Virus record (IMG/VR): IMGVR_UViG_3300042471_001765
Coordinates: 1 to 55,846 of that record
Strand: one strand, 5' to 3'
DNA: 55,846 bases
From: a virus
Each line of letters opens with the position of its first letter. Position 1 is the first letter of the stretch. The notes under the pieces were generated by a model. It was not told where the DNA came from and made no database searches. It saw only the letters and a program-made list of their open reading frames with translations. Made by a program: the position numbers and the translations under genes. Below, piece after piece: positions 7,195-50,067 of the stretch.

Positions 7195-7226
7195 AAAAAA
7201 CCCTGCTAAGGAGCAAGGTTTTTGTT
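7195..7226. terminator. Bidirectional intrinsic terminator after the portal gene
   Basis: AAAAACC...TGCT pairs with AGCA...GGTTTTT around a 4-base loop, with one internal mismatch, and has A and T runs on the two sides. It ends the portal transcript on the plus strand and could also end the minus-strand gene at 7225-7290. Confidence 0.65.
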
Positions 7227-7290
7227 ATTTATTGCGATATCGCCTGATTAGCTCTTGTACTTTTTCCACTAAAGCTAGTGGAATGTACAT
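7225..7290 (-). CDS. Possible very small protein, or remnant of a longer gene
   Basis: From ATG at 7290 this reads 21 residues, MYIPLALVEKVQELIRRYRN and a final K. The same frame extends upstream without ATG for about 16 more residues (ending GRPATGRGKT), up to a TAG stop, in a style seen in short cyanobacterial DNA-binding-like proteins. It therefore looks like the C-terminal part of a small protein whose start was lost or is non-canonical. It sits after the gene ending at 7335 and before the terminator. No clear ribosome binding site. Confidence 0.35.
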   Translation of the reverse strand: MYIPLALVEKVQELIRRYRNK

Positions 7291-7334
7291 GGTCTTGCCC
7301 CGTCCGGTGGCAGGGCGACCAGTTTTTACAGTTT

Positions 7335-7643
7335 TTATAAAGGGATGCTATCGCCTAAGCGATAGTCTGGTGACGTGGAGTGGATTACTAATGCCACCCC
7401 CAACCGGGGGTTGGCGACTGCGATCGCACCAAATTGATTTTTGTAGTGAGCAATAGCTGCCCCTACAAACGATGTGGGCATACCCGACAATACAGCCAAT
7501 CCGGGACCAGCCGCAATGTCAAAATCTAAACCTGCTAATTCTTGCACTTCATCTACTGAATTCTGAGGGGAAACGGGATCCCCATTCTTGGTGATCGCGA
7601 GCAATGTGTAGCTAGGTTGGGTTGTTGCGGTTACATTAACCAT
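7335..7643 (-). CDS. Conserved-looking hypothetical protein
   Basis: 102 residues, MVNVTATTQPSYTLLAITK at the start, then a small Gly/Ala-rich middle (DIAAGPGLAVLSG) and a beta-like C-terminal part (IAVANPRLGVALVIHS). No membrane segment or catalytic motif is evident and I do not recognise the family. A Shine-Dalgarno GAGGAG lies 12 bases before the ATG, and a good sigma-70 promoter with an overlapping palindrome lies just upstream (7673-7704), so this is an expressed, separately controlled minus-strand gene. It lies between the portal and the endolysin. Confidence 0.6.
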   Translation of the reverse strand: MVNVTATTQPSYTLLAITKNGDPVSPQNSVDEVQELAGLDFDIAAGPGLAVLSGMPTSFVGAAIAHYKNQFGAIAVANPRLGVALVIHSTSPDYRLGDSIPL

Positions 7644-8628: not shown

Positions 8629-8720
8629 ATATGCAACCTCCTACAGGCATCTTAATTATACACTCAACACACAAGAACCGATATACTACCAAGAACAAAA
8701 AAAATATTTTTATTTACCCC

Positions 8721-8749
8721 TTGACAAATAAAAAGTATCAGGATACTAT
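8721..8749 (+). promoter_or_regulatory. Early-type sigma-70 promoter with GTATC-AG-GATAC operator
   Basis: TTGACA (8721-8726), 17-bp spacer, TACTAT (8744-8749). The palindrome GTATCAGGATAC (8735-8746) overlaps the -10. Near-identical promoters precede 10881, 11331, 11938 and, on the minus strand, 25662. It drives the gene at 8780 and those coupled to it. Confidence 0.8.
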
Positions 8750-8779
8750 AAAGGGGTAAGCAACAAAGAGGTAACAGCA

Positions 8780-10732: not shown

Positions 10733-10874
10733 AAAACCACAGACTCCAACCAGGTGTAACAGCCTGGTTTTTTTGTGCCTACTGATAAATAGGTATAAAA
10801 ATATTTTTAAAATTAAGTGTTGACTTTTCAAAAATATCAGTATACTATATAAGGGTAGAGAAAAAACAAAGAGG
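10732..10874 (+). repeat. Terminator-promoter cassette, copy 1
   Basis: 143 bp. It contains a terminator stem AACCAGG...GCCTGGTT plus T-run (about 10748-10774), an AT-rich link, TTGACT (10820-10825), 17-bp spacer, TACTAT (10843-10848) and a Shine-Dalgarno GAGG at the end. It matches copy 2 at 141 of 143 positions by eye. It ends the thyX transcript and starts the next gene at 10881. Confidence 0.85.
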
Positions 10875-11186: not shown

Positions 11187-11327
11187 AAACCACAGACTCC
11201 AACCAGGTGTAACAGCCTGGTTTTTTTGTGCCTACTGATAAATAGGTATAAAAATATTTTTAAAATTAAGTGTTGACATTTCAAAAATATCAGGATACTA
11301 TATAAGGGTAGAGAAAAAACAAAGAGG
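11185..11327 (+). repeat. Terminator-promoter cassette, copy 2
   Basis: 143 bp, same order as copy 1: terminator stem AACCAGG...GCCTGGTT with T-run (about 11201-11227), TTGACA (11273-11278), 17-bp spacer with ATATCAGGATAC overlapping the -10, TACTAT (11296-11301) and GAGG just before the next start. Confidence 0.85.
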
Positions 11328-11793: not shown

Positions 11794-11925
11794 TCCAACC
11801 AGGTGTAACAGCCTGGTTTTTTTTTGTGCCTACTGATAAATAGGTATAAAAATATTTTTAAAATTAAGTGTTGACATTTTAAAAATATCAGGATACTATA
11901 TAAGGGTAGAGAAAAAACAAAGAGG
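11794..11925 (+). repeat. Terminator-promoter cassette, copy 3
   Basis: 132 bp, same elements as copies 1 and 2 but lacking the first bases of the conserved block and with a slightly longer T-run. Terminator about 11796-11825, TTGACA 11871-11876, 17-bp spacer with ATATCAGGATAC, TACTAT 11894-11899, GAGG at the end. Confidence 0.85.
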
Positions 11926-12560: not shown

Positions 12561-12944
12561 CTATTCAAAAGACACAAAATCAACCAGGTGTAACAGCCTG
12601 GTTTTTTTGTATCGCTCGATCGCTTCCTCTAGCTCCCAGAAAATAGGAGCGCCAACAGCCGATATGAGCCGATCGCTCCGATACTTTCCGGTGGTGATTT
12701 CTTGCTTAGAGAATCCCAACTGGATAAGTGTTTCGTAGGAACCTAGTAGAGGGATGAATTCCTCAAGCCGAGCAATACTCAAATTACCATCCTTAAATTG
12801 CACCGGGAATATATCGCGGTTGTCAGCTACCTGTGGGGGCTGTTCCGTTGCGATCGCGATGGTAAATGGCGGATCCGGTGGGTGGATAAGGGCATCCCTG
12901 ATGGTGAGTACAGATACCAATCTGCCAGAAAGATAGTTATTCAT
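12561..12944 (-). CDS. Hypothetical protein whose C-terminus is encoded by the terminator repeat
   Basis: 127 residues. The body reads like a conserved protein (FKDGNLSIARLEEFIPLLGS, then LGFSKQEITTGKYRSDRL, then AVGAPIFWELEEAIE). The last ~15 residues (KKTRLLHLVDFVSFE) come from the antisense of the terminator hairpin at 12582-12608, so the original 3' end seems to have been replaced when that repeat arrived. It is convergent with the gene at 11938. No function assigned; the gene opens the minus-strand group 12561-14101 in reverse order. Confidence 0.55.
   Translation of the reverse strand: MNNYLSGRLVSVLTIRDALIHPPDPPFTIAIATEQPPQVADNRDIFPVQFKDGNLSIARLEEFIPLLGSYETLIQLGFSKQEITTGKYRSDRLISAVGAPIFWELEEAIERYKKTRLLHLVDFVSFE
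12582..12608 (+). terminator. Fourth copy of the accessory-unit terminator
   Basis: AACCAGG, a 6-base loop, GCCTGGTT and a T-run, identical to the hairpins of the three cassettes but with no promoter part. It ends the unit at 11938-12555. Confidence 0.85.
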
Positions 12945-14206: not shown

Positions 14207-14371
14207 ATGTATTCAATCACGATAGCGGTAAGACACGAGGAGCCAGATGGCTCCTACACCGAGTGGGTGCTGAACACACCCCAAGCCCAGGAAGCTCTCA
14301 CCCAGAGAGCAAAAAGACAAATTGAGCGGCTTATTACTAAGGATAATAAGGACACAAAAAATGAACATTGA
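14207..14371 (+). CDS. Small hypothetical protein, first gene of the long plus-strand operon
   Basis: 54 residues, MYSITIAVRHEEPDGSYTEW at the start and a basic helical C-terminus (ALTQRAKRQIERLITK). It begins after a region holding TTTAGT...ACTAAA inverted arms that may be an operator. The 3' end overlaps the next gene (start 14361) in another frame, so both are probably translated from one mRNA. No function known. Confidence 0.5.
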   Translation: MYSITIAVRHEEPDGSYTEWVLNTPQAQEALTQRAKRQIERLITKDNKDTKNEH

Positions 14372-18877: not shown

Positions 18878-19465
18878 ATGCAAGTATTAATTTGGGGAGA
18901 TTACGCCTGCTTCACGCGTCCGGAATTGAAAGCAGAGCCATTTTCGTACAATTACCCCACCTTTAGCGCGATCACAGGGGTGCTAGAGAATATCTACTGG
19001 AAGCCTGAAATGAAATACAAAATTAATTTTATTTTAGTTTGCAATCCAATTAAGAGGGCAAAATTTAAAATTAATGGCATCCAGGATAAGGCAAAAATAT
19101 CCAACATTGGCGGGATTCTAGCCGATGATTATAGTGTGCGCACACAAAGGAATTTAAATGTTTTGAAAAATGTGCGATATGTAGTAGATTTTGAGATTGA
19201 TCCACAGCGAACCGTGGACATCAAAAAACACAATTCCATCATCTACCGAAGGATTGAAAAAGGACAATATTATCACCATCCATGCCTGGGGTTTAAGAAA
19301 TTCCCTGCTTATTTTTCATTTCCAGTTGGTGATGAAAAAGGGCATCCATCCTTACTAGATGAGGAATATGTGGCTTTAAAGTACCTAAATTTTACAGGAA
19401 GCAAGGTCAAGCCTGAGTTTGGAATTTATCAAATTACGAAGGGTAAAATATGCTGCTTGAATTAG
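18878..19465 (+). CDS. cas5: Cas5 (type I-C, Cas5d/Cas5c crRNA endonuclease)
   Basis: 195 residues, slightly short for the family (about 220-240). The opening WGDYACFTRPELKAE and then TGVLENIYWKPE matches the Cas5d N-terminus, including the Tyr (Y40) that corresponds to the catalytic Tyr. DIKKHN (about 114-119) supplies the Lys-His pair known as catalytic in Cas5d, and RRIEKGQYYHHPCLGFKKFP is the conserved glycine-rich/final region. In type I-C this protein replaces Cas6: it cuts the repeat RNA and then holds the 5' handle of the crRNA in Cascade. The Shine-Dalgarno is AAGGAG. Overlaps cas8c by 16 bp. Confidence 0.9.
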   Translation: MQVLIWGDYACFTRPELKAEPFSYNYPTFSAITGVLENIYWKPEMKYKINFILVCNPIKRAKFKINGIQDKAKISNIGGILADDYSVRTQRNLNVLKNVRYVVDFEIDPQRTVDIKKHNSIIYRRIEKGQYYHHPCLGFKKFPAYFSFPVGDEKGHPSLLDEEYVALKYLNFTGSKVKPEFGIYQITKGKICCLN

Positions 19466-21003
19466 CCGAATTAGGCAAAAAATTAGAAGCACAAGGGTTA
19501 TTGGCTCCTTTTGGCTATGGCTTTATATCCATAGCATGGGAGTTGATGCTAAATGAAGACTCTGTAGATATAATTCCAGTGGCTACAGATTCAAAGCTAA
19601 AAACAAAAAAAATGTGTATTCCCGACATTGCTAGGAATAACACAAATCCCATCGCTCCCTGCGATAGTGCCGAATATGTACTAGGCTTAGGCGATCGCGG
19701 TGAATCGAGACACCAAAAATACTTGAATCTTCTCAAAGAATTGTACGGAGACCTGGAACTAGGACGCAAATTACATCAAGTCTTGACAGAAAAAAAATAC
19801 ACTGTTCCCACAAAAATGAATAGTGGCGATCGCTTGGTTATCAGCTTCGATGGTGTGTTCTTACATGAATTACCAGAATTTAAATCTCGGTGGATTTTAT
19901 ACGTAAATTCACAGCAAGAAACAATTACTGGAACTTGTAGCTTATCGGGTAAGGAATGCCAGGCTTTTGAAAAAACCATCCCAAAAAAGATCAAAGGCGT
20001 GCGGGGAAGCTTATCTTCTGGTGCTGCTTTAATCAGCTTCGATAAAGACTTCTCTCAAAGCTATGGATGGAAAAATAATGAAAATGCCTTAATAGATAAA
20101 GACATAATCTTACTAGCGTACCGATCGCTAGAATGGATTTTGAATGAAAAAACAACCCACTGGCATTGTGGGAACGATGATCTGACTTTCATTTTTTGGG
20201 GTGACGCTAGCGAGGGAATCCATGATGATATTTGGAATAGCGACATCACTAAAATCGACGGTGCTTTTACATCACTGGATGGTAATGGTTATCGTCGGAA
20301 ATATCCTCTATCTAATAGCTTTGTTTTTTGCACTCTCAAGGGCAACAGCGGGAGGATTTCGTTAGAAGATGTTGGAAAGATTAGCGCCGAAAACATTAGA
20401 AGCAACATAGAAAGATTTTTCCAGGATCAATTAATCAATGAATCCTGGAAACCTTACCCCATATGGCGACTAGTTTCTACAATGTACAAAAATCCAAAAA
20501 AAGAGTACACGAAAGATATTAAAAAATCACTTGCTGAATTAATGCTTTTTGGTACTCCATTACCTCGAAAAGTGGTAACATTATTATTAGCTAGAATATA
20601 CGCCGATCGCGACATAAAAAGCAGAGCCAATATTTTAGCCTTGTATGCAAAAACAACATTACTTCAAAATAAGAAGATGAAAAGTAAACAAGCAGAAGCT
20701 TTAGGACGCATAGCTTTTTGCCTGCATCAAGCACAATCCATCCAGAGAGGGAGTAGCAATACAAACATTATCAAATGTTTAAAAGCCTTAGCCCATTATC
20801 CTTGTAAACATTTTCATAGACTTTTAATCTCTTTTCAAAGAGATTATTTCCTTGTCACCCTATCCACTCGTATAGGTGAGCTATCGAGGGGATTAGAAAT
20901 ACCGGAAACACTTACAAAAGAAGAGCAGACCGTATTCATGCTCGGATTCATACAGGAACAAGATGAATACTGGTCCGCTAAAAACAAAGAGGTAACTCAA
21001 TGA
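19450..21003 (+). CDS. cas8c: Cas8c (Csd1), large subunit of type I-C Cascade
   Basis: 517 residues (family usually about 570-600). It follows the Csd1 plan: an N-terminal helix LLELAELGKKLEAQG, then GFISIAWELMLNEDSV, a SAEYVLGL element, a central STASG-like part (FIFWGDASEG near residues 245-260), and a C-terminal helical domain AEALGRIAFCLHQAQ ... EEQTVFMLGFIQEQ typical of the Csd1 end. The protein recognises the PAM and begins DNA unwinding. The C-terminal helical region is also the expected source of the Cas11c small subunit through an internal start. cas7 begins inside its stop codon. Confidence 0.85.
   Translation: MLLELAELGKKLEAQGLLAPFGYGFISIAWELMLNEDSVDIIPVATDSKLKTKKMCIPDIARNNTNPIAPCDSAEYVLGLGDRGESRHQKYLNLLKELYGDLELGRKLHQVLTEKKYTVPTKMNSGDRLVISFDGVFLHELPEFKSRWILYVNSQQETITGTCSLSGKECQAFEKTIPKKIKGVRGSLSSGAALISFDKDFSQSYGWKNNENALIDKDIILLAYRSLEWILNEKTTHWHCGNDDLTFIFWGDASEGIHDDIWNSDITKIDGAFTSLDGNGYRRKYPLSNSFVFCTLKGNSGRISLEDVGKISAENIRSNIERFFQDQLINESWKPYPIWRLVSTMYKNPKKEYTKDIKKSLAELMLFGTPLPRKVVTLLLARIYADRDIKSRANILALYAKTTLLQNKKMKSKQAEALGRIAFCLHQAQSIQRGSSNTNIIKCLKALAHYPCKHFHRLLISFQRDYFLVTLSTRIGELSRGLEIPETLTKEEQTVFMLGFIQEQDEYWSAKNKEVTQ
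20677..21003 (+). CDS. Possible internal Cas11c small subunit
   Basis: In other type I-C systems the small subunit Cas11c is translated from an internal start near the 3' end of cas8c. Here an in-frame ATG at 20677 lies directly before the AEALGRIAFCLHQAQ segment that begins the Cas11-like helical domain, giving 108 residues. The codons just before it, AAT-AAG-AAG, offer only a weak, very close ribosome site. No better in-frame ATG was seen nearby. Inference from family knowledge plus position. Confidence 0.4.
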   Translation: MKSKQAEALGRIAFCLHQAQSIQRGSSNTNIIKCLKALAHYPCKHFHRLLISFQRDYFLVTLSTRIGELSRGLEIPETLTKEEQTVFMLGFIQEQDEYWSAKNKEVTQ

Positions 21004-21806
21004 TAACGCAATCCACAACGCGCCATGACGCGATGGCATTCATAGAAGTAATCGACGGGAACCCCAACGGTGACCCGGATAACAATAATGAGCCACGCAG
21101 TGATATATCGACTGGACAAGGGTTGATATCTGATGTGTCCCTCAAAAGGCAAATCAGGAATACCCGCACCCTGAGCGGGTATGATGACATCTTCATCAAA
21201 CAAGGGGCTGCACTAAACGCACTGATGGAAGAGTGCTGGGGTAAATCTAAATTCAATTTAAACACCGACAGGGAAAATATCACCAACATTTTAATTGAAA
21301 AATACTGGGATATAAGAATGTTTGGGCAAGTCCTCAGTACAGGAAAAACACCAGGCTACCCTGTCCGGGGGTGCTTACAGATATCTTTCGGACGCTCCCT
21401 AGATCCGATTGAAATAGCCGAACACACCATTACCCGGTGTGCTAGCGCCAAACAGGAAGAAGAAAAAGAAAATAAAACCATGGGGAATAAAATGACAGTC
21501 CCGTATGGACTTTACACCTTTCGCATTGCTTTTTGCCCAAACAATAAAGCTAGTGATGAAGATTTAGAGTTTTTCTGGCAAGCTCTAAAATCTTGCTGGG
21601 AACTGAATAGATCAGCTAGCAGGGGGTTTATGGCGACAAGGCAAATAGTAATTTTCTCCCATGAAAGCCGTTTAGGATCAGCCCCGACACATGATTTGTT
21701 TGATACTGTATCTGTAGCCAAACAAGTTGAATTCCCCAGAAAATGGGAAGATTACAAAATTACTTACAAGGATATTCCAGAGGGGATATCCAGAACCATT
21801 TTGTAA
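21000..21806 (+). CDS. cas7: Cas7 (Csd2), backbone of type I-C Cascade
   Basis: 268 residues. IEVIDGNPNGDPDNNNEPR is the strongly conserved Csd2 opening, followed by GLISDVSLKRQIRNT; then a GQVLSTGKTPGYPVRGCLQI region and TVPYGLYTFRIAF near residues 165-180. Six or seven copies coat the crRNA in the complex. ATGA overlap with cas8c gives translational coupling. A hairpin with a UUCG loop and T-run follows the stop, so the cas5-cas8c-cas7 message can end here before cas3. The protein is shorter than typical (about 280-290) but all main elements are present. Confidence 0.92.
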   Translation: MITQSTTRHDAMAFIEVIDGNPNGDPDNNNEPRSDISTGQGLISDVSLKRQIRNTRTLSGYDDIFIKQGAALNALMEECWGKSKFNLNTDRENITNILIEKYWDIRMFGQVLSTGKTPGYPVRGCLQISFGRSLDPIEIAEHTITRCASAKQEEEKENKTMGNKMTVPYGLYTFRIAFCPNNKASDEDLEFFWQALKSCWELNRSASRGFMATRQIVIFSHESRLGSAPTHDLFDTVSVAKQVEFPRKWEDYKITYKDIPEGISRTIL

Positions 21807-21812
21807 TTCCTT

Positions 21813-21831
21813 AAGCCCTTCGGGGCTTTTT
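21813..21831 (+). terminator. UUCG-loop terminator between cas7 and cas3
   Basis: AAGCCC-TTCG-GGGCTT followed by a short T-run, 7 bp after the cas7 stop and only 5 bp before the cas3 start. It would lower cas3 expression relative to Cascade, and there is no Shine-Dalgarno between the hairpin and the cas3 ATG. Confidence 0.7.
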
Positions 21832-21836
21832 AATAA

Positions 21837-23822
21837 ATGCAAAAACAATTTTATGCTCGCATCTCAGATTCCCGCGGGCAACTTCTAAAAAATCACCTCT
21901 TGGAAGTTGCCAACCTAATGAATGAAAGATCCAAAGAAAAATTCAGGATTTACGCTTATTACATAGGCTTATGGCACGACTTAGGCAAATACAGAGAAGA
22001 ATGGCAGAATTACTTGATTAATGCGATCGCGGGCAAGAACCAAGAGCGTATTCATCACGCAGGGTATGGTGCTTGTGTATGTGAGCATCCTGTAATTAAT
22101 GGAATTATCGCGGGTCACCATAGTTCTATCAAGCCGCCGGAGCAAATAGGTGAAAATAGTATGGCTTTCGCTAAATACGAGAAAGAATATCAAGAATGTA
22201 TTGCCAACGCCACCCAAGAGATACCCCACTTTATCCAAGAAATTCCCAGAATCAAGCAAGCGCCAAACAATCGAGATGTAATGGCGAGGATGCTTTACTC
22301 ATTACTGATTGATAGCGATCGCTTAAATGCCCACTGCTTCTCAACATCCACCGATTGGAATGAGATTATTGATAATTCCGGCAGGGTGGTAATCAATATT
22401 AATATTCCCAGACACAATGAAAATACCTCAATCAATTCACTAAGAAATAAGTTTAGAACCACAGCCCTAAAAGCAGCCAAGAACAAACCAGGGTTGTACA
22501 AGCTCACCGGAGCCACAGGAATAGGCAAAACATATACAGCTTTTGAGTTTGCAGCATTGCACAACAACTTTAACAAAATGAATGGAGTTGTTTATGTTGC
22601 TCCTTTTAATAGCATATTAGACCAGACATCATCAGCAATTCACAAAATAGTTGAAAACGAAATACTAGATCACTATGGCAGCTTTGACAATTCAGACTCA
22701 CCAGCCATGCGCATTTCCTGTTCTCGGTGGGACAAACCAGTTATCTTGACTAGCATGGTACAACTGCTATCTAGTATGTTCAGCGATCGCGCGACGAAAG
22801 TCAGGAAATTACAAGGCTTAATCGATAGAGTAATCATCATTGATGAACCCCAATCTTTACCAATAAAATGCATTACTCCCATCCTAAATATGTTGTCTGC
22901 ATTAGTGGAAGATTGGGGATGTTCGGTAATATTCATGTCCGCCACGCAACCAGTATTTAATAATATTGGCACTTGGAATTTTCAAGATATCATCTCAAAA
23001 GATTTTCATCGCGATCACTCCTTAAAGCGAGCTAATTATAAATACTATCCAGAGCCAATGAAGTGGAAAGAATTACAAAATAAAGTTTGTTTGGAGTCAA
23101 TGGCATTAATTATTTTCAGTACCACTCAAAATGCCAGAGATTTCTATCATCAATTAAAAGTAGCCACCGACAAACCAGTACTGCATTTAAGCAGTAAGAT
23201 GTACATCCTGCATCGCAAGCAAGTATTAAGCCAAGTCCGTCGGTTGTTGGCAGAAGACAAAGATTTTTACTTAATCTCTACCCAAGTAGTAGAAGCTGGA
23301 ATTGATCTTGATTTTCCCTGTGTATTCAGGCAAATAGCCCCTATTCCTTCAATCATTCAAGCCCAAGGACGACTTAACAGAGAAGGTAAAAGAGACCCCA
23401 AAAATTCATGGCTACACATTTTTAATCTTGCAGAAGGAAACATACTGCCAGAAGATATCAAAGGCGCGGCAATTTCTCACACCCTATTAACACAAAACAA
23501 AGATTTAAATGACCTCAATGACATCTATTATCGTCGCTACTTGACAACCACCACCGACACCGGAGAAGAAATCGAAGCCCTCAGATACCAACAAAAATAT
23601 GATCAAGTAGCCGAAAAATTCAACATCATAGAAAATCAAAACACAGTCCTGGTTTTAGCTGAAGATTTTTTGAAAGACTATCAATATAAATCCCTCACAC
23701 CATCAGATTGGCAGATACTGCGATCATATACAGTCAACACCAGATCAAATAATTATATTGAATGGATAAATGGTATTTTGTGCTGGAATGGTGGGTATGA
23801 TGAGTGTGGAATTATGATATAA
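21837..23822 (+). CDS. cas3: Cas3 helicase-nuclease (HD plus DExD/H)
   Basis: 661 residues, shorter than the usual 730-900. HD nuclease: H20 in LLKNHLLEVA, H47-D48 in GLWHDLGKYREEW, H73-H74 in RIHHAGYGA, H94-H95 in IIAGHHSSI and D161 in LLIDSDRLN. Helicase: Walker A TGATGIGKT (224-232), VYVAPFNS, DEPQ box (336-339), MSAT (367-370), STQVVEAGIDLDFP and the arginine-finger motif QAQGRLNREGK. After Cascade binds a target, Cas3 nicks and unwinds it. All catalytic residues seem intact, so the interference arm should work. The stop codon lies inside the -10 of the array promoter. cas1, cas2 and cas4 are absent. Confidence 0.92.
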   Translation: MQKQFYARISDSRGQLLKNHLLEVANLMNERSKEKFRIYAYYIGLWHDLGKYREEWQNYLINAIAGKNQERIHHAGYGACVCEHPVINGIIAGHHSSIKPPEQIGENSMAFAKYEKEYQECIANATQEIPHFIQEIPRIKQAPNNRDVMARMLYSLLIDSDRLNAHCFSTSTDWNEIIDNSGRVVININIPRHNENTSINSLRNKFRTTALKAAKNKPGLYKLTGATGIGKTYTAFEFAALHNNFNKMNGVVYVAPFNSILDQTSSAIHKIVENEILDHYGSFDNSDSPAMRISCSRWDKPVILTSMVQLLSSMFSDRATKVRKLQGLIDRVIIIDEPQSLPIKCITPILNMLSALVEDWGCSVIFMSATQPVFNNIGTWNFQDIISKDFHRDHSLKRANYKYYPEPMKWKELQNKVCLESMALIIFSTTQNARDFYHQLKVATDKPVLHLSSKMYILHRKQVLSQVRRLLAEDKDFYLISTQVVEAGIDLDFPCVFRQIAPIPSIIQAQGRLNREGKRDPKNSWLHIFNLAEGNILPEDIKGAAISHTLLTQNKDLNDLNDIYYRRYLTTTTDTGEEIEALRYQQKYDQVAEKFNIIENQNTVLVLAEDFLKDYQYKSLTPSDWQILRSYTVNTRSNNYIEWINGILCWNGGYDECGIMI

Positions 23823-23823
23823 T
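23815..23823 (+). promoter_or_regulatory. Extended -10 promoter of the CRISPR array
   Basis: TGATATAAT (TGn plus a perfect TATAAT) overlaps the cas3 stop codon and lies 7 bp upstream of repeat 1; no good -35 is seen, as is common for extended -10 promoters. The following G-run continues directly into the repeat. The same TGATATAATGGGGG string precedes the solitary repeat on the minus strand at 35981-35994. Confidence 0.7.
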
Positions 23824-23830
23824 GGGGGGA

Positions 23831-24005
23831 GTAACAATCCCTCGCAAGGGGGGTTGAGGATTGTAATTAGGAAGCGCTAGATTGTCAGGGCTTAACGGTA
23901 ACAATCCCTCGCAAGGGGGGTTGAGGATTTTAACATCGAAATACACCCAAAAAAGCGCGCGAGCCGGGAGTAACAATCCCTCGCAAGGGGGGTTGAGGAT
24001 TGTAA
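23831..24005 (+). CRISPR. Three-repeat CRISPR array (type I-C)
   Basis: Repeats of 36 bp start at 23831, 23898 and 23970; each begins GTAACAATCCCTCGCAAGGG and ends GATT(G/T)TAA. Copies 1 and 3 agree; copy 2 differs at one base (T for G near the 3' end). The two spacers are 31 bp (23867-23897) and 36 bp (23934-23969). Repeat RNA can fold by CCC-TCGCAA-GGG or by the longer ACAATCC/GGATTGT pairing. The 3' end (GGATTGTAA) resembles the usual I-C handle (GGATTGAAA). Beyond repeat 3 is a short echo, GAGGATTGCAAC (about 24006-24018), maybe a decayed further repeat. No acquisition genes adjoin, so the array is probably frozen or fed by host Cas1-Cas2-Cas4. Confidence 0.93.
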
Positions 24006-24053
24006 CGAGGATTGCAACAATGTAACAACCACGGAGCCATATCAGACAGTAAT

Positions 24054-25662: not shown

Positions 25663-25693
25663 TGTTTTTGCCTCTTTGCTTACCTACCCTTAT

Positions 25694-25723
25694 ATAGTAT
25701 CCTGATACTTTCCAAGTTGTCAA
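25694..25723 (-). promoter_or_regulatory. Early-type promoter of the ssb unit with GTATC-AG-GATAC operator
   Basis: Minus strand TTGACA (25723-25718), 18-bp spacer, TACTAT (25699-25694), and the palindrome GTATCAGGATAC (25708-25697), as at 8721. A further AATATCAGGATAA half-like copy lies at 25750-25762 on the plus strand without a clear -10. Confidence 0.8.
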
Positions 25724-32680: not shown

Positions 32681-32710
32681 GTGAAACTTGCCTATAGCGA
32701 TGAGGTAACA

Positions 32711-33559
32711 ATGAAAACAATAACAATGGTAGTCCCCAGCTACCTTGACGACTGGGGACTCAACCCCTATGAATTTCGTGTTTATTGCCGCATAGCCCGG
32801 CAGGCTGGTAAGTCGGGATGCCTTGAATCTATAGCATCTATGGCGCAGGCGTGCCTAATGGATGCCAAATCGGTGCGTAAAGCCATAAAAAGGTTGCTGG
32901 CAGATAAGCTAATCCGGGCGATCGCAGCACCGGGTAATCCTACCAGATATGAGCTTAATCCCATGGATGAATGGGAAGCTGCAAAGCGGGAACCCCTGCC
33001 AGATATGGTAGACCCCCCCTGCCAGATCCGGCATACCCCCCCTACCACATTAGGTAGCCCTACCCCTACCAGATCCGGCATACCCCCCCTACCAGATATG
33101 GTAGACCCCCCCTGCCAGATCCGGCATACCCCCCCTACCAGATCCGGCATACCCCCCCTGCCAGAAATCCCATCTAACAAGGATTTCTCAATGCCATCAG
33201 GATTTTCCCCACTTTCTGGAAAAAATCCAAGAACAGGAAAAGAGTATTTTCCTTGGCAAGGAATTCAGAATGGGCGCATTGCCAACAATCCTGAATTTTT
33301 GGAATTTGTAGCGCGATCGCTTACCTCCAAATACGACCATTACAAAAATCTACAACTCCGAGAGCTTCCCATTGAAATTAAAAATTATGTAAATCGCGCA
33401 CAGCATGATTTACAGCGTGAGGAGACTATGTGGGAGTACTGGAATATTTTTACATCAAATCAAAAGGAATTCTTGCCTCAAACCATGAGTGTAAATGAGG
33501 TAAAAACAATCTCCGCTTTGGAGAAAATGACACAAAACCTAGTAAACAAAGGATACTGA
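32711..33559 (+). CDS. Replication initiator-like protein with origin iterons inside its gene
   Basis: 282 residues from ATG 32711, chosen for GAGG five bases upstream; GTG 32681 is possible. The N-terminal ~80 residues are a winged-helix domain (WGLNPYEFRVYCRIARQAGK, MAQACLMDAKSVRKAIKRLL, DKLIRAI), as in phage replication proteins of the O/DnaD-like class. Residues ~95-152 are a Pro-rich low-complexity stretch encoded by 23-bp DNA repeats (see that entry). The C-terminus is helical (IEIKNYVNRAQHDLQREETM). By analogy with lambda O it probably binds repeats inside its own gene and loads helicase with the next protein. Confidence 0.65.
   Translation: MKTITMVVPSYLDDWGLNPYEFRVYCRIARQAGKSGCLESIASMAQACLMDAKSVRKAIKRLLADKLIRAIAAPGNPTRYELNPMDEWEAAKREPLPDMVDPPCQIRHTPPTTLGSPTPTRSGIPPLPDMVDPPCQIRHTPPTRSGIPPLPEIPSNKDFSMPSGFSPLSGKNPRTGKEYFPWQGIQNGRIANNPEFLEFVARSLTSKYDHYKNLQLRELPIEIKNYVNRAQHDLQREETMWEYWNIFTSNQKEFLPQTMSVNEVKTISALEKMTQNLVNKGY
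32996..33168 (+). repeat. 23-bp iterons, candidate replication origin
   Basis: Seven tandem units of 23 bp (one of 24) starting near 32997, 33020, 33043, 33067, 33090, 33113 and 33136, plus a partial eighth. The core is T(A/G)CCAGAT, then CCGGCATACC or ATGGTAGACC, and a C-run. Since 23 is not a multiple of three, successive units are read in all three frames (LPDMVDPP, CQIRHTPP, TRSGIPP), so selection acts on DNA. This is the picture of iterons inside a replication gene. Confidence 0.85.
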
Positions 33560-34760: not shown

Positions 34761-35659
34761 AAATCGGATCAATTTGTAGTGGCATGGGAATGGCTTTACA
34801 TGGCTTAGGAGATCGCGTCTGGGGCATTGAGTATGATCCTGCCATAGCCGACATTTACCAAGCCAATCATGGCTTAGGTATTATTTGCAGTCCAGTAGAA
34901 AAAATAAGCCCGGATACCTTGGAAGATGTGGACTGCATAGTAGCCACGCCTTCATGTATCCGAGCCTCTAAAGCCAATTATAGCAATAGCCCAAAAACCA
35001 GGGAAACTAGCGATGATCTTAGTGTAGCATGGGCGATCGCTAACATTATCAGCAGAAAGCTCCCTAAGTTTTTCATCTTGGAAAACGTCCCAGGATACAA
35101 AACTTTTGAGAGCTACAACACGATCATCAAAACATTATACGCCAATCAGTATTATGTTCGTACTCAAAAACTAAATCTAAAAAATTTCGGCATAGCTCAA
35201 AGTCGCGATCGCATCTATGTAATGGCTGTCCGCAATGGTTTTTTTATGGATATCGTACCACCGAATAAAAATATGGGATGGTATGAAGCGATCGCGGATA
35301 TAGTGGATACACTGCCAGATACAAAGCTGACTTCTTGGCAGCATCCCGTGGGTGATTGTTTATTTCGTAGGTGTGGGGCTAATAAATCCAACAATAGATT
35401 GTATGCCCCCCACGAACCAGTTTTCACCATCAGAGCCTATGGCAGAAAAGCAGGGGGACATTGGCATCAAGCCGATATCTCTATTGGTGGCAATTTCAAA
35501 GCACTAACACCCCAAGCTGAATTACGATTTTTTGGGGATAAAAAAACAGCCGACAAGATTAAATTGCCAACCTCCAAAGCCTTGGCTAGCGAGGTAGTAG
35601 GTAATGGCGCTAGTTGGGAGATCATGCAAATCTTACTAAATCACATGGTGAAAAAATGA
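34757..35659 (+). CDS. DNA (cytosine-5-) methyltransferase
   Basis: 300 residues. Motif I IGSICSGMGMALHGLG; motif IV is VATPSCIRAS with the catalytic Cys (C67) in a P-S-C rather than P-P-C setting; motif VI FFILENVPG (E109); motif VIII QSRDRIYVMAV; and motif X ALASEVVGNGASWEI at the end. It should methylate cytosine in a fixed site; with HIP1 so common the target could be CGATCG, but that is speculation. Last gene but one of the replication operon, overlapping the N6 methylase by four bases. Confidence 0.88.
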   Translation: MKIGSICSGMGMALHGLGDRVWGIEYDPAIADIYQANHGLGIICSPVEKISPDTLEDVDCIVATPSCIRASKANYSNSPKTRETSDDLSVAWAIANIISRKLPKFFILENVPGYKTFESYNTIIKTLYANQYYVRTQKLNLKNFGIAQSRDRIYVMAVRNGFFMDIVPPNKNMGWYEAIADIVDTLPDTKLTSWQHPVGDCLFRRCGANKSNNRLYAPHEPVFTIRAYGRKAGGHWHQADISIGGNFKALTPQAELRFFGDKKTADKIKLPTSKALASEVVGNGASWEIMQILLNHMVKK

Positions 35660-35865
35660 AAAACATTGATCATCCATCTCATTACAATAGCGGCGAAATT
35701 GAGTGCATTGATGCGATCGCTTCGGCACTCACACCAGAAGAATTAGCTGGGTTCATTAAGGGCAATGTTGTCAAGTACCTATGGCGCTCCAATTCCAAAG
35801 GTAAACTAGAGGATTTAGAAAAAGCTGAATGGTACTTAAAATGGTATTTGCAAAAAAAACGATGA
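35656..35865 (+). CDS. DUF3310 phage protein
   Basis: 69 residues from ATG 35656: IDHPSHYNSGEIECIDAIAS, then GNVVKYLWRSNSKGKLEDLE and KAEWYLKWYL. This is the complete DUF3310 pattern (HP.HY..G.ECID.......G..KY..R...K...D..KA..Y). Found widely in phages, function not established; sometimes fused to nucleotide kinases. Ends the operon; a terminator hairpin lies 10-45 bp on. Confidence 0.85.
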   Translation: MKNIDHPSHYNSGEIECIDAIASALTPEELAGFIKGNVVKYLWRSNSKGKLEDLEKAEWYLKWYLQKKR

Positions 35866-35874
35866 CTGACTAAC

Positions 35875-35910
35875 TAAAAAAAACCCTGTAATCGCTCGCT
35901 GATTACAGGG
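35875..35910. terminator. Terminator shared by the solitary-repeat RNA (minus) and the DUF3310 operon
   Basis: CCCTGTAATC, 7-base loop, GATTACAGGG: a perfect 10-bp stem at 35884-35893/35901-35910. On the minus strand it is followed by nine T (35883-35875), so it is a very good terminator for the RNA started at about 35981. Confidence 0.9.
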
Positions 35911-35981
35911 CAGGCATTAAACACAAAAGAAAAAGACAAATCTAACATATTTACAATCCCCCCCTTGCGAGGGATTGTTAC
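35875..35981 (-). ncRNA. Solitary CRISPR-repeat RNA (candidate RNA anti-CRISPR or regulatory crRNA-like RNA)
   Basis: A minus-strand unit of about 107 nt: one repeat-like element (35981-35951), a 40-nt AT-rich linker (35950-35911) and a perfect terminator hairpin. The element equals the 36-bp array repeat except for deletion of TTGAG, leaving 31 bp; the deletion makes a cleaner hairpin, ACAATCCC pairing with GGGATTGT. The start site predicted from the promoter is at the first repeat base. It contains no open frame. It could bind Cas5/Cas7 and block or redirect the complex, or repress a target through its linker. Not known to be expressed. Confidence 0.7.
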
Positions 35982-35985
35982 CCCC

Positions 35986-36013
35986 ATTATATCACAGCTT
36001 CACACCGTGGCAA
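35986..36013 (-). promoter_or_regulatory. Promoter of the solitary-repeat RNA
   Basis: Minus strand TTGCCA (36013-36008, 5 of 6 to consensus), 16-bp spacer, TATAAT (35991-35986) with TGn in front (extended -10). The -35 lies in the last codons of dcd. From TGATATAAT into the G-run the sequence equals that before the CRISPR array. Confidence 0.8.
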
Positions 36014-36581
36014 CAGTGATCGCTTGGGGCTGATTTTGATATTTGCCAGAGCGATCGGCGTAAGTGGTTTGGCATGGTTCTCCTTCTAAAAATAGAAGCT
36101 GTATCACCCCTTCATTAGCATAGATGCGACAATCAGCACTGGAAGCGTTGCTAAATTCCAGGGTTAAAAATCCTTCCCATGAGGCTTCCGCTGGGGTGAT
36201 GTTTGCAATTATCCCACACCGTGCCATGGTTGATTTGCCAGTACAAATAACTGTGATATTGGCAGGTACGCACAACCTTTCTAAAGAGACACCCAAAGCG
36301 TAGGAGTTAGCAGGGATAATAAAAAACGATCCATCTTCATCTGTCCGCAGGGTGGCAGGTTCTAGGTTGTCAGGGTTAAACCGTTTAGGGTTAACAATCG
36401 TCCCTGGAATATGCCTAAAAATGCGAAAGTCTGTAGGAGCCAACCTTAAATCATAGCCATAGCTAGACAAGCCATAACTAATAACTCGCCTATCTTCAAC
36501 CATCCGCACCATAGAACCTTCAAAGGGCGCGATCATCCCTTGTTTGGCTTGTTCAATAATCCATTTATCGTTTTTCAGCAT
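36000..36581 (-). CDS. dcd: dCTP deaminase
   Basis: 193 residues. Characteristic segments: ISYGLSSYGYDLRLAPTDFR, IIPANSYALGVSLERLCVPA, TGKSTMARCGIIANITPAEA with the conserved catalytic region, and WEGFLTLEFSNASSADCRIY. The Gly-Glu pair of the core is represented by NEGVIQLLFLEG. It turns dCTP into dUTP, which feeds ThyX after dUTPase action, and also lowers dCTP. With thyX and nrdJ it forms the phage's nucleotide set. The 3' end holds the -35 of the solitary repeat promoter. One-base overlap with the gene before it. Confidence 0.9.
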   Translation of the reverse strand: MLKNDKWIIEQAKQGMIAPFEGSMVRMVEDRRVISYGLSSYGYDLRLAPTDFRIFRHIPGTIVNPKRFNPDNLEPATLRTDEDGSFFIIPANSYALGVSLERLCVPANITVICTGKSTMARCGIIANITPAEASWEGFLTLEFSNASSADCRIYANEGVIQLLFLEGEPCQTTYADRSGKYQNQPQAITVATV

Positions 36582-46704: not shown

Positions 46705-49700
46705 CTACACCTCCACCGCGATCGGAAATAAGGTAATAGCTGATGCACTTCTAGCTACACCTGTAAGAATATTTCTTTTCCCTGGATTGACATTAATACT
46801 TGAATTATCGCCAGCTAGTCGTTTAAAAATGGAATTTAAATTAACAGCATACCCCGTCGCATCTTGAATCAGATAAATAATATATGTAGCACCTGGTTGG
46901 ATATTACTAATAGTTAAATCTGTAACCACACCTGTAATAGTATGACTAAAGATATTCCCAGAGCCACCATTTAGTACCACATTACCACTGCCAGAGCTAG
47001 TAATAATACTACCGGATTGAGCCGCGGTAAATTGTTGAGCCGCGGTAGTAAAAGCAACCTTGTTAATCGCGCCATTGCTACCCAGCCTAGCGTGTAGTTC
47101 ATTGTTTTTATTGTATATTTTGATTTCACTATCAGTACTTGGATCTACCCCGGTGGGAATTACACCTAATTCAGGAGCAGCGCTCACGCTCCCCGCAGCC
47201 CCTGTTGCCCCTTCTACACCACCACTGGAAACACGACTATTACTAATTATCGAGCTACCAGCGATCGCATTACCAGTGGCTCCTGTATTTTCAATAGTAA
47301 CGGAATCACTAGCGACACCAGTCACCTTGTAGTACCCACCGCCACTGACAAAAATAGTTTGTCCCACGGAGATCCAGTCTGAGTTGCCGACAAACAATAC
47401 CCCACTACTCCCGATGGCAGGCTGGATAAAATTATTAGTGGTGTTTGTAAACGCACCTTGTCCTACAGCCCCCGTTGCACCTGTAGCACCAGTTGCACCC
47501 GTCGCGCCAGTTGCGCCTTGGATACCCCCGCTAGAAATACTCCGTCCGGTTGCAGCGATCGCACCTGGTAAAGCATTTCCCGTATAGCCTAAATTTTTAA
47601 TCTCAACAGATGTACTACTGGGCTTGGATACAACAGAATAATACCCACCATCCTGGACATAAACGATCATCCCAGTAGCCATCCAATCGCTATTACCCAC
47701 CGAAGCCGTGACATTAGCATTAACCGCAGGCTGGGTAAACCCACTAGTAGTTGCGGTATATCCAGCACTACCTGGTAATCCAGCAATCCCACCGGGACTT
47801 ACCCCCTTACCTGCGGCTATTAATTCATAATAATTACCATTACCAGGATGTCCATCATTTTGAAGAATCAAGGATGATGAATTAGGTTTACTCGCAACTA
47901 CAAAACTTCCAGCATCTTGAATATAAACGAATTGTCCAACAACGGCCCAATCTGAATTACCGACAGCCACCGAGACCGTAGTCCCAATAGCAGGAATTAC
48001 AAAAGAGCCTGTAGTTATAGTGAATGCGTTAATTCCATCCGTACCATCCGTACCATCCGTACCATCCGTACCATTTGTACCGTTTACGCCATTTGCACCA
48101 TCAGCACCCCTAGGTATACTGAAAGTCAAGTACACCTGGTTACTCGATCCAGACTGTGCTACCGTAGCTTGAGACCCCGGTGCTAGAGTCAGTACATCAG
48201 GGTTTACAGCCACACTCGCTGGCTGAAAATCCCCATCCCATTCTCTGATACAGTCCGCAGCGACATGAGATATGGATGTAATTTGATTCCCGTTGTACTG
48301 GAAAGAATAGGCGATCCTAAAATTAGTTGTCGGGAAGTTACCAGCGATCGCGGTAGGTGTAGGGATAGTTGCAGCAAATAGAGAAAAATCAGCACTAGCC
48401 ACAGGTAGACTAGCCACAGTACCAGACTCCCAGTCGATAATCTCAAACACTTGAGTAGTATTACCGGGAACCACCGAGAATCCAGAGAATTTCTTAATTT
48501 CTAAAGTATCTTGCCTCTGGATATAAAAATTAATCCCAAAAGCATTAAAAACAGCCTTATCACTTCCAGCCAAAACATCAGGATAGTCATCCCTTACAGC
48601 CACCGGGAAAGTAATAGAAATTGAAAAACCACCACCACTTAAGTAACTACTAAAGCTCCCAGCCACACTCTCCCCAGCCACCGTTCCGACGATTGCCCGG
48701 ATAGCTTCAGCCTCGGTTGGTTGATAGCTTGGCAACGCAGTAAACACCGCAGCATTACCATTAATAATTACCTTTTGTCCTGCCAAATTAGCAGACAAAT
48801 TCCCATAGGTACGCCGTGGCTTAATAGGAAAATCATAAGATGCAACGATAGCCGCACCCCGTAGCACATCATAAGTCAATCCCGTATTAGGTACTACCCT
48901 GTACTTATCCCCCAAATCGTAAATAATCCCTCTTTTAGATAAGTCCCCATCAATAGATAACAGCTTTCCCAGGGGGTTGTAGTCACCCGATCGCGTCCGA
49001 GTCACCGGGATTACACCAATTACCGCCTTGGGTGTCACTTCATTATTAAGCTCTGCAACGCTAAAAAATGGCTTGACTGCTAGAGCGATCGCTTCCCCCG
49101 GTTGCAGATCATCAATGGTTATAAATGGTGTTTCTAGCCTTGGCGACCAGGGAATAAAAGCCCCTAGATTAGGAAAATTTCTACCCTCCACATCGGTAGT
49201 ACGGTAAGTTCCATCACCCCTGACAAAACCATCAAACCGCACCAAAAACAAACTACTCAGCAAGTCAGGCGATCGCTTGTTGTTATATTCCAGTTCAACA
49301 CCAAATTCAGTACCCGCGGGTAAAACCACAGTCTGATCATTGTAGATAAAATACCGAGCTTCCCATGTGGGTTCATACTTACCTAGGGTAGTTCCTGGAT
49401 ATGGTGGTGTAGGTATTACAGTAGTTCCCGTGGGATTTACTTCACTTAGCGGGCGATCGCTACCCACCGCATCACTATCTGGATTCCCCACATAGGTAGA
49501 AGCACCCCCCACCTGTACCCATTGACCAAAATCAACGCCAATCACAAAATCACTCACAGGCAACTCTGAATCAGCCCGATACTCCAACCACCGGGATTGA
49601 TTAGTCACCCACCGTACCTGTCCATCTATGCGATCGCTCCCAGTAGGTAAGCTCGCGATGGTAGCCACTGAGGGAGCCAAGGCAATATGAGCATTCCGTG

Positions 49701-50067
49701 ATAATTCAATGGTCGCTGGTAAATCCACCTTAGTGGTTTGCTTGTCGTAACCCAAGCCGTACTTGTAGCCGTGATACCTAGCGATTTGCACATGAGTACT
49801 AGGATCCGCAGTAGTTCCAGCGCTAACAACAAAATAGTGGACATCCCAAGCTGGTTTGCTAACACTTGCAGGGATGGTAATAATAATTTTTTGATTAGCA
49901 GCATAACTAACTACACTGGATACCGCCGGAGCATTAAACCCCACCCGATTTTGTAATTGAAATGATAAATATAAATTCCCCCCGGTGGTTAGCTCGCCGC
50001 CGGACACCACAGCAACCTGAAAAGCTGGGCAATTAGTACCTACCCCTGCATACCTAGCGATCGCCAT
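46705..50067 (-). CDS. Tail fibre with collagen-like repeats
   Basis: 1120 residues. The first ~600 residues are beta-rich and start as fibre attachment domains do. Collagen-like Gly-X-Y runs follow, a GTDGTDGTDGTDG stretch (DNA 9-bp repeats at about 48037-48080) and a GATGATGATGATGATGAVG run (about 47480-47515). Between and after them is a repeated ~65-residue unit with FTQPAVNANVTASVGNSDWM / FIQPAIGSSGVLFVGNSDWI type text. The C-terminal ~110 residues are a head domain (FKRLAGDNSSINVNPGKRNI). It should form trimers and bind host surface. The gene end holds the ribosome site of the LamG gene. Confidence 0.85.
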   Translation of the reverse strand: MAIARYAGVGTNCPAFQVAVVSGGELTTGGNLYLSFQLQNRVGFNAPAVSSVVSYAANQKIIITIPASVSKPAWDVHYFVVSAGTTADPSTHVQIARYHGYKYGLGYDKQTTKVDLPATIELSRNAHIALAPSVATIASLPTGSDRIDGQVRWVTNQSRWLEYRADSELPVSDFVIGVDFGQWVQVGGASTYVGNPDSDAVGSDRPLSEVNPTGTTVIPTPPYPGTTLGKYEPTWEARYFIYNDQTVVLPAGTEFGVELEYNNKRSPDLLSSLFLVRFDGFVRGDGTYRTTDVEGRNFPNLGAFIPWSPRLETPFITIDDLQPGEAIALAVKPFFSVAELNNEVTPKAVIGVIPVTRTRSGDYNPLGKLLSIDGDLSKRGIIYDLGDKYRVVPNTGLTYDVLRGAAIVASYDFPIKPRRTYGNLSANLAGQKVIINGNAAVFTALPSYQPTEAEAIRAIVGTVAGESVAGSFSSYLSGGGFSISITFPVAVRDDYPDVLAGSDKAVFNAFGINFYIQRQDTLEIKKFSGFSVVPGNTTQVFEIIDWESGTVASLPVASADFSLFAATIPTPTAIAGNFPTTNFRIAYSFQYNGNQITSISHVAADCIREWDGDFQPASVAVNPDVLTLAPGSQATVAQSGSSNQVYLTFSIPRGADGANGVNGTNGTDGTDGTDGTDGINAFTITTGSFVIPAIGTTVSVAVGNSDWAVVGQFVYIQDAGSFVVASKPNSSSLILQNDGHPGNGNYYELIAAGKGVSPGGIAGLPGSAGYTATTSGFTQPAVNANVTASVGNSDWMATGMIVYVQDGGYYSVVSKPSSTSVEIKNLGYTGNALPGAIAATGRSISSGGIQGATGATGATGATGATGAVGQGAFTNTTNNFIQPAIGSSGVLFVGNSDWISVGQTIFVSGGGYYKVTGVASDSVTIENTGATGNAIAGSSIISNSRVSSGGVEGATGAAGSVSAAPELGVIPTGVDPSTDSEIKIYNKNNELHARLGSNGAINKVAFTTAAQQFTAAQSGSIITSSGSGNVVLNGGSGNIFSHTITGVVTDLTISNIQPGATYIIYLIQDATGYAVNLNSIFKRLAGDNSSINVNPGKRNILTGVARSASAITLFPIAVEV

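Follow-up and report, generated by a model that had tools for sequence, protein, structure and literature searches.

A solitary type I-C CRISPR repeat unit in a phage genome that carries its own type I-C system: a candidate RNA decoy

The solitary repeat unit and the genome around it

The sequence analyzed in this study (hereafter the window) is the whole 55,846-nt stretch of the IMG/VR record IMGVR_UViG_3300042471_001765, and all positions refer to it. A putative small-RNA unit composed of a promoter, a solitary CRISPR repeat, a linker and a terminator is located on the minus strand (36013-35876). It lies in the intergenic region between a dCTP deaminase gene directly upstream (36000-36581, minus strand; PHROG 1663, 1.3e-50), whose 3' end is overlapped by the unit promoter, and a convergent DUF3310 gene (35614-35865, plus strand; Pfam PF11753, 4.8e-20). 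The repeat copy, GTAACAATCCCTCGCAAGGGGGGGATTGTAAA (35981-35950, minus strand), differs from the repeat of the CRISPR array in the same genome, GTAACAATCCCTCGCAAGGGGGGTTGAGGATTGTAAC, by the loss of TTGAG and by its final base, an A. Its 23-nt core GTAACAATCCCTCGCAAGGGGGG (35959-35981, minus strand) matches the array repeat exactly, and no chance match to this core is expected even if three mismatches are allowed (0 in 100 shuffles). The nearest other repeat copies are about 12 kb away, and none was found within 100 bp. These results confirm a preceding sequence-only reading of the window, which had reported a lone repeat copy minus TTGAG at a distance of 12 kb from the array and on the other strand.

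The promoter of the unit (36013-35986, minus strand) consists of TTGCCA (36013-36008), a 16-nt spacing and TATAAT (35991-35986), with a TG before the -10 box. It is sigma-70-like and agreed in a consensus scan with 11 of the 12 consensus positions in addition to the TG, as expected from the earlier claim of a near-consensus extended -10 promoter at the repeat. Two promoter-like sites were detected in a region of 501 nt, compared to 0.7 in shuffled sequences. Transcription is predicted to start at about position 35980 (± 2). The repeat is followed by a U-rich linker (35911-35949, minus strand), which measures 39 nt from the end of the repeat and 42 nt from the end of the hairpin, and by an intrinsic terminator (35876-35910, minus strand) with a perfect 10-bp stem, a 7-nt loop and a run of T. 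The terminator stem (35910-35884) has a marginal 11th pair in addition to its 10 bp. Thus, the anatomy of a small-RNA gene with a linker and a perfect 10-bp terminator stem was recovered as proposed, but the linker (39 instead of 40 nt from the repeat end), the T run (eight instead of nine T, 35883-35876) and the predicted transcript (about 104-106 instead of about 107 nt) are slightly shorter than had been stated. A search against Rfam returned no family for the unit.

The window comes from a cyanobacterial phage and also contains head, endolysin and ParB-like genes. A protein encoded at 46705-50067 is 56% identical to Nodularia phage proteins, and the dCTP deaminase and the ribonucleotide reductase have their closest counterparts in Cylindrospermopsis phages. 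Relatives identified by the tail protein were few and, one weak match apart, about 56-61% identical. In the collections searched, no close relative of the phage, the unit or the repeat was found, and neither exact nor relaxed repeat patterns matched any of the viral contigs. The unit was absent from 80 loci with related dCTP deaminases, and from the surroundings of the dCTP deaminase gene in five annotated cyanophages. Furthermore, the phage repeat occurred in no array of 386 sampled cyanobacteria, the solitary-unit pattern in none of 293 genomes of one cyanobacterial order, and the linker had no convincing match in phage genomes and 3.8 Mb of fetched loci.

Several other repeated elements were observed. 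Five promoter-like blocks share a TATCAGGATACTATATAAGGG-like sequence (8698-8767, 10797-10866, 11250-11319 and 11848-11917 on the plus strand, 25684-25711 on the minus strand), some of them with the palindrome GTATCAGGATAC, and look like one type of operator or promoter that is used several times. Four nearly identical terminators, CAACCAGGTGTAACAGCCTGGTTTTTTT, are located at 10747-10776, 11200-11229, 11796-11825 and 12581-12610, and a tandem array with a unit of ~23 nt like CCCCTGCCAGATCCGGCATACCC (32993-33181) lies inside the ORF at 32681-33559. The Cylindrospermopsis phage Cr-LKS4 possesses a CRISPR-like array with the repeat GTAGGGAAAGGGTCGGGAAGTTAGGTCGATGGGAACA at about 7200-7480, downstream of its dCTP deaminase gene.

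The type I-C system of the phage and its relationship to the unit

A type I-C block, cas5c-cas8c-cas7c-cas3, occupies positions 18878-23822 on the plus strand. It comprises cas5c, which codes for the pre-crRNA processing nuclease of this subtype (18878-19465; PADLOC Cas5c, 3e-37), cas8c (19450-21003; PADLOC Cas8c, 1e-39; NCBIfam Csd1, 2.6e-36, which is under the cutoff of that model), cas7c (21000-21806; NCBIfam cas_Csd2, 1.1e-68, over cutoff), and cas3 with HD and helicase parts (21837-23822; PADLOC Cas3c, 3.9e-144). All four genes are full-length ORFs, and a cognate system for the solitary repeat is therefore present in the same genome. In an alignment to solved Cas5c structures, the phage Cas5c retains the KH motif and (I)YWKP, which, by analogy with Cas5d, we take to include catalytic residues. 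No cas1, cas2 or cas4 was seen among the ORFs scanned, which were a part of those in the window.

The cas genes are followed by a type I-C CRISPR array (23831-24006, plus strand) of three repeats (23831-23867, 23898-23934 and 23970-24006) and two spacers of 30 nt (23868-23897) and 35 nt (23935-23969). Its repeat follows the same design as the chromosomal type I-C repeats found in Anabaena, Aphanizomenon and Sphaerospermopsis (GTGACAATTACTATTTAAGGTAATTGAGGATTGAAAC is one example), although the interior of the hairpin differs. The spacers had no convincing match in phage genomes and 3.8 Mb of fetched loci. Spacer 1 resembles a segment of the phage's own dCTP deaminase gene (36353-36382; 21 of 30 positions match) and, with 20 matching positions, homologous deaminase genes of other phages. 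The similarity to the phage's own gene is probably due to chance, and it is conceivable that the spacer is aimed at the deaminase of a relative.

Directly before the first array repeat, an extended -10 element, TGATATAAT (23815-23823, plus strand), overlaps the stop codon of cas3 and is homologous to the unit promoter. The latter includes a good -35 box at a spacing of 16 nt, whereas the same consensus scan did not report an array promoter on the plus strand. Over the 25 nt that precede the solitary repeat and the array, 21 positions (84%) are identical, and TGATATAATGGG occurs at only two places in the window, upstream of the unit repeat and upstream of the array. In both of them the -10 box lies almost directly at the repeat, in contrast to chromosomal cyanobacterial arrays, in which a TATTAT box and the first repeat are kept apart by a conserved leader of ~55 nt. 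Since the homology reaches past the repeat into the upstream sequence, we infer that the unit and the 5' end of the array have a common origin, with copying in either direction being compatible with the sequences.

Predicted effect of the TTGAG deletion on the RNA fold

In type I-C systems, cleavage of the repeat RNA by Cas5c at the base of the stem produces a 5' handle of 11 nt. According to RNA folding, the array repeat of the phage has the typical layout of this subtype and forms a 9-bp hairpin (CAAUCCCUC/GGGGGGUUG) with a free 11-nt 3' end, AGGAUUGUAAC. The stem-loop is predicted to be preserved in the solitary copy, but as TTGAG is missing, the unchanged 5' arm of the stem pairs with the former handle sequence. 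The resulting 10-bp hairpin (ACAAUCCCUC/GGGGGAUUGU; 35953-35978, minus strand) takes in sequence of the 5' handle and is more stable than that of the array repeat (-16.4 compared to -13.9 kcal/mol; z = -5.5); if the last 11 nt are forced to be free, only -5.1 kcal/mol are left. The mean unpaired probability of the 11-nt handle was 0.27 in the solitary copy and 0.98 in the phage's own array repeat. Across 34 type I-C array repeats, handle accessibility ranged from 0.69 to 1.00, and the solitary copy falls below all of them. Neither this refolding nor the upstream sequence shared with the array had been noted in the sequence-only reading. A hairpin of at least this stability arose from 5 of 280 distinct deletions of 1-12 nt, and from one of 25 deletions of five nt. 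The spacing of hairpins is also similar, with 42 nt between the repeat and terminator hairpins of the unit and 45 and 50 nt between those of the array. Because a hairpin, 42 nt and a second hairpin approximate the array spacing, the predicted RNA resembles a crRNA module in outline but lacks a handle.

A candidate repeat-mimic decoy and its alternatives

As the handle is predicted to be buried in the hairpin, the RNA should be a poor guide. This prediction disfavors a regulatory crRNA and favors a Racr-like decoy that mimics the repeat recognized by Cas5c. Consistent with the proposal of an RNA anti-CRISPR in the sequence-only reading, such an interpretation is supported by the sequence, the predicted structure and the comparison with validated Racrs (PMC10651486). 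Like these, the unit is a solitary intergenic repeat in a phage, which has its own promoter and a retained stem-loop and is expected to lack a usable 5' handle, and type I-C is among the subtypes inhibited by Racrs (PMC10651486), one of which, RacrIC1, was validated by Camara-Wilpert et al. 2023 (PMC10651486). A Racr is expected to have a promoter at most 250 bp upstream of the repeat, and TTGCCA-16-TATAAT with TG lies within this distance. In RacrIF1, the stem-loop is essential and changes of the handle are tolerated (PMC10651486), and when the RNA offers no usable handle, Cas5f and Cas8f do not join the complex (PMC10651486).

The unit also differs from Racrs in several respects. Its phage harbors a cognate I-C system and an array with a homologous 5' end, its handle is predicted to be lost by folding into the stem, and no acr gene was recognized next to it, whereas RacrIC1 is located downstream of acrIC5. 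Racrs are usually described from elements without cas genes, a descriptive feature that is outside the published search criteria; here, cas5c-cas8c-cas7c-cas3 are 12 kb away. A Racr is expected to match the CRISPR subtype of its host; the repeat of the unit matches the phage's own I-C and was absent from the 386 cyanobacteria sampled. On structural grounds, we regard the unit as a Racr-like candidate, in a context beyond the usual description of Racrs. The viral CRISPR mini-arrays (PMC11656645) are likewise small repeat-bearing transcription units of viruses, but require at least two repeats enclosing a spacer, and the unit has a single repeat and encloses none.

Our preferred interpretation is that the unit is a small-RNA gene whose product mimics the repeat and acts as a decoy in the assembly of type I-C Cascade, to which we assign a probability of slightly below one half (about 0.48). 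The ~105-nt RNA would be bound by Cas5c through the 5' arm and the loop that it has in common with the array repeat; it would display the hairpin recognized by Cas5c and yield no guide with a normal handle. The geometry of RacrIF1, in which a long 5' segment is coated by Cas7f, is ruled out if the transcript begins at the hairpin as predicted. A Cas7 filament could then form only on the 3' product, and any inhibition would be due to the hairpin alone or to this product. The repeat is shared with the phage's own array and was found in no array of a sampled host, so that the phage's own type I-C system would be the first target to expect, and the RNA could serve there as a rheostat or off-switch. 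Judging from the sequences compared, this system with its Cas5c is the only demonstrable cognate of the unit, and the RNA might also act on a host I-C system whose repeat is similar. A more specific scenario, which we consider doubtful, is a self-directed RNA anti-CRISPR, for which the start of the array was duplicated, five bases were deleted and the handle was locked in the hairpin, resulting in a dedicated off-switch. In addition to the geometry, several points count against the decoy. The change of the hairpin is the automatic outcome of one short deletion, a large part of the handle sequence is retained (GGATTGTAA) and could be opened by protein binding, and blocking its own CRISPR system brings the phage nothing obvious. 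Moreover, the collections searched yielded no close relative in which the unit is conserved, and the 386 cyanobacteria no host array with this repeat.

A serious rival to the decoy, albeit an unlikely one in our estimate, is a non-functional leftover, that is, a decaying duplicate of the array 5' end between the stop codon of the dCTP deaminase gene and its terminator. The common origin with the array and the 5-nt deletion would fit such a remnant, no relatives that show conservation of the unit were found, and the terminator could be that of the deaminase operon. However, 23 nt of the repeat are unchanged, the deletion makes the hairpin stronger and not weaker, and the promoter of the unit, with 11 of 12 positions and a -35 box, is better than that of the array, which the scan did not report. 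It is also rather improbable that the unit, perhaps together with the mini-array, is an anti-host Racr that disarms a type I-C system of the host whose repeat is the same or similar. Repeats of the same design accompany chromosomal type I-C systems of Anabaena, Aphanizomenon, Calothrix and Sphaerospermopsis, the solitary hairpin shares its stem base CAAT/ATTG with chromosomal Nostocales repeats, and 83% of the solitary repeats in host-assigned prophages match the subtype of the host (PMC10651486). Nevertheless, the interior of the phage hairpin, CCCTCGCAAGGGGG, was in no array of the 386 sampled cyanobacteria, and the homology of the unit to the phage's own array includes the particular upstream sequence of the latter.

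Two further explanations would give the linker a targeting function. An ordinary antisense small RNA, in which the 5' hairpin is only a stabilizer and the U-rich linker pairs with phage mRNAs, appears very unlikely. The linker has a 12-nt complement at 14311-14322 (plus strand), and its duplex ahead of the ORF at 14322 (-28.6 kcal/mol) was equaled by one of 60 shuffled linkers, which is borderline; yet many targets were tried, a 12-nt match is unremarkable in AT-rich sequence, and an antisense function would not account for the sequence identity to the CRISPR repeat. CreR and similar CRISPR-derived cas repressors depend on a functional handle and on a seed match flanked by a PAM. The unit resembles CreR in that one repeat is followed by a short non-array sequence under the control of its own promoter, and Cas-dependent transcriptional repression through repeat-like sequences has precedents (cited in PMC10651486). 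A matured RNA whose linker guides Cascade to a promoter is nonetheless highly improbable here, as the handle is predicted to be buried in the stem and even the best seed matches next to a PAM do not exceed 9 nt in the window, are scattered and in no case lie upstream of cas5c. When the linker was considered as a guide, its seeds were compared with the whole window in four registers and no PAM-flanked match of note was obtained, neither elsewhere in the phage genome nor in the cas promoter region, where the sequence-only reading had suggested to search. The regulatory crRNA that it had offered as a second option is thus supported by neither the predicted fold nor the seed comparison.

Among loci around type I-C cas7 from cellular and viral genomes with a recognized array, solitary repeats outside arrays were rare. 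The coexistence of a CRISPR system and a solitary unit in one phage, which had been called striking, is indeed restricted to one other type among the genomes examined, but is not unique. Two cyanophage-like contigs, IMGVR_UViG_3300042503_002860 (G001) and IMGVR_UViG_3300042503_001836 (G002), carry type I-C and, outside two large arrays, three full 37-nt solitary repeats with intact handles (50405-50369, 49792-49756 and 297-261 in G001, and the same in G002). They share with our phage the combination of a viral contig, a type I-C system and repeats outside arrays. In contrast to the unit, their repeats are full, have a handle and could be matured, and both the repeat sequence and the context are different. 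The G001 repeat at 50405-50369 is preceded by a promoter-like TGTTAAAAT box and followed by a terminator, which would be compatible with either a single-guide RNA gene or a Racr that retains its handle. Another phage-like contig, IMGVR_UViG_3300034094_000170, has type I-C cas genes, a 7-repeat array, a Cas12f/TnpB-like gene and, right after cas7, a degenerate two-copy repeat of other sequence.

Racrs have so far been described as weapons against the host, whereas the repeat mimic described here shares a genome with the matching CRISPR system. If the decoy works as proposed, phages would regulate borrowed CRISPR systems with handle-less repeat RNAs, and the unit would provide a small, naturally occurring inhibitor of type I-C Cascade. 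It would also suggest a structural rule for decoys, according to which the hairpin is kept and the handle is buried, and which separates Racrs from CreR-like guides. A self-directed RNA anti-CRISPR, if true, would represent a natural means to time or dose a phage-borne CRISPR system.
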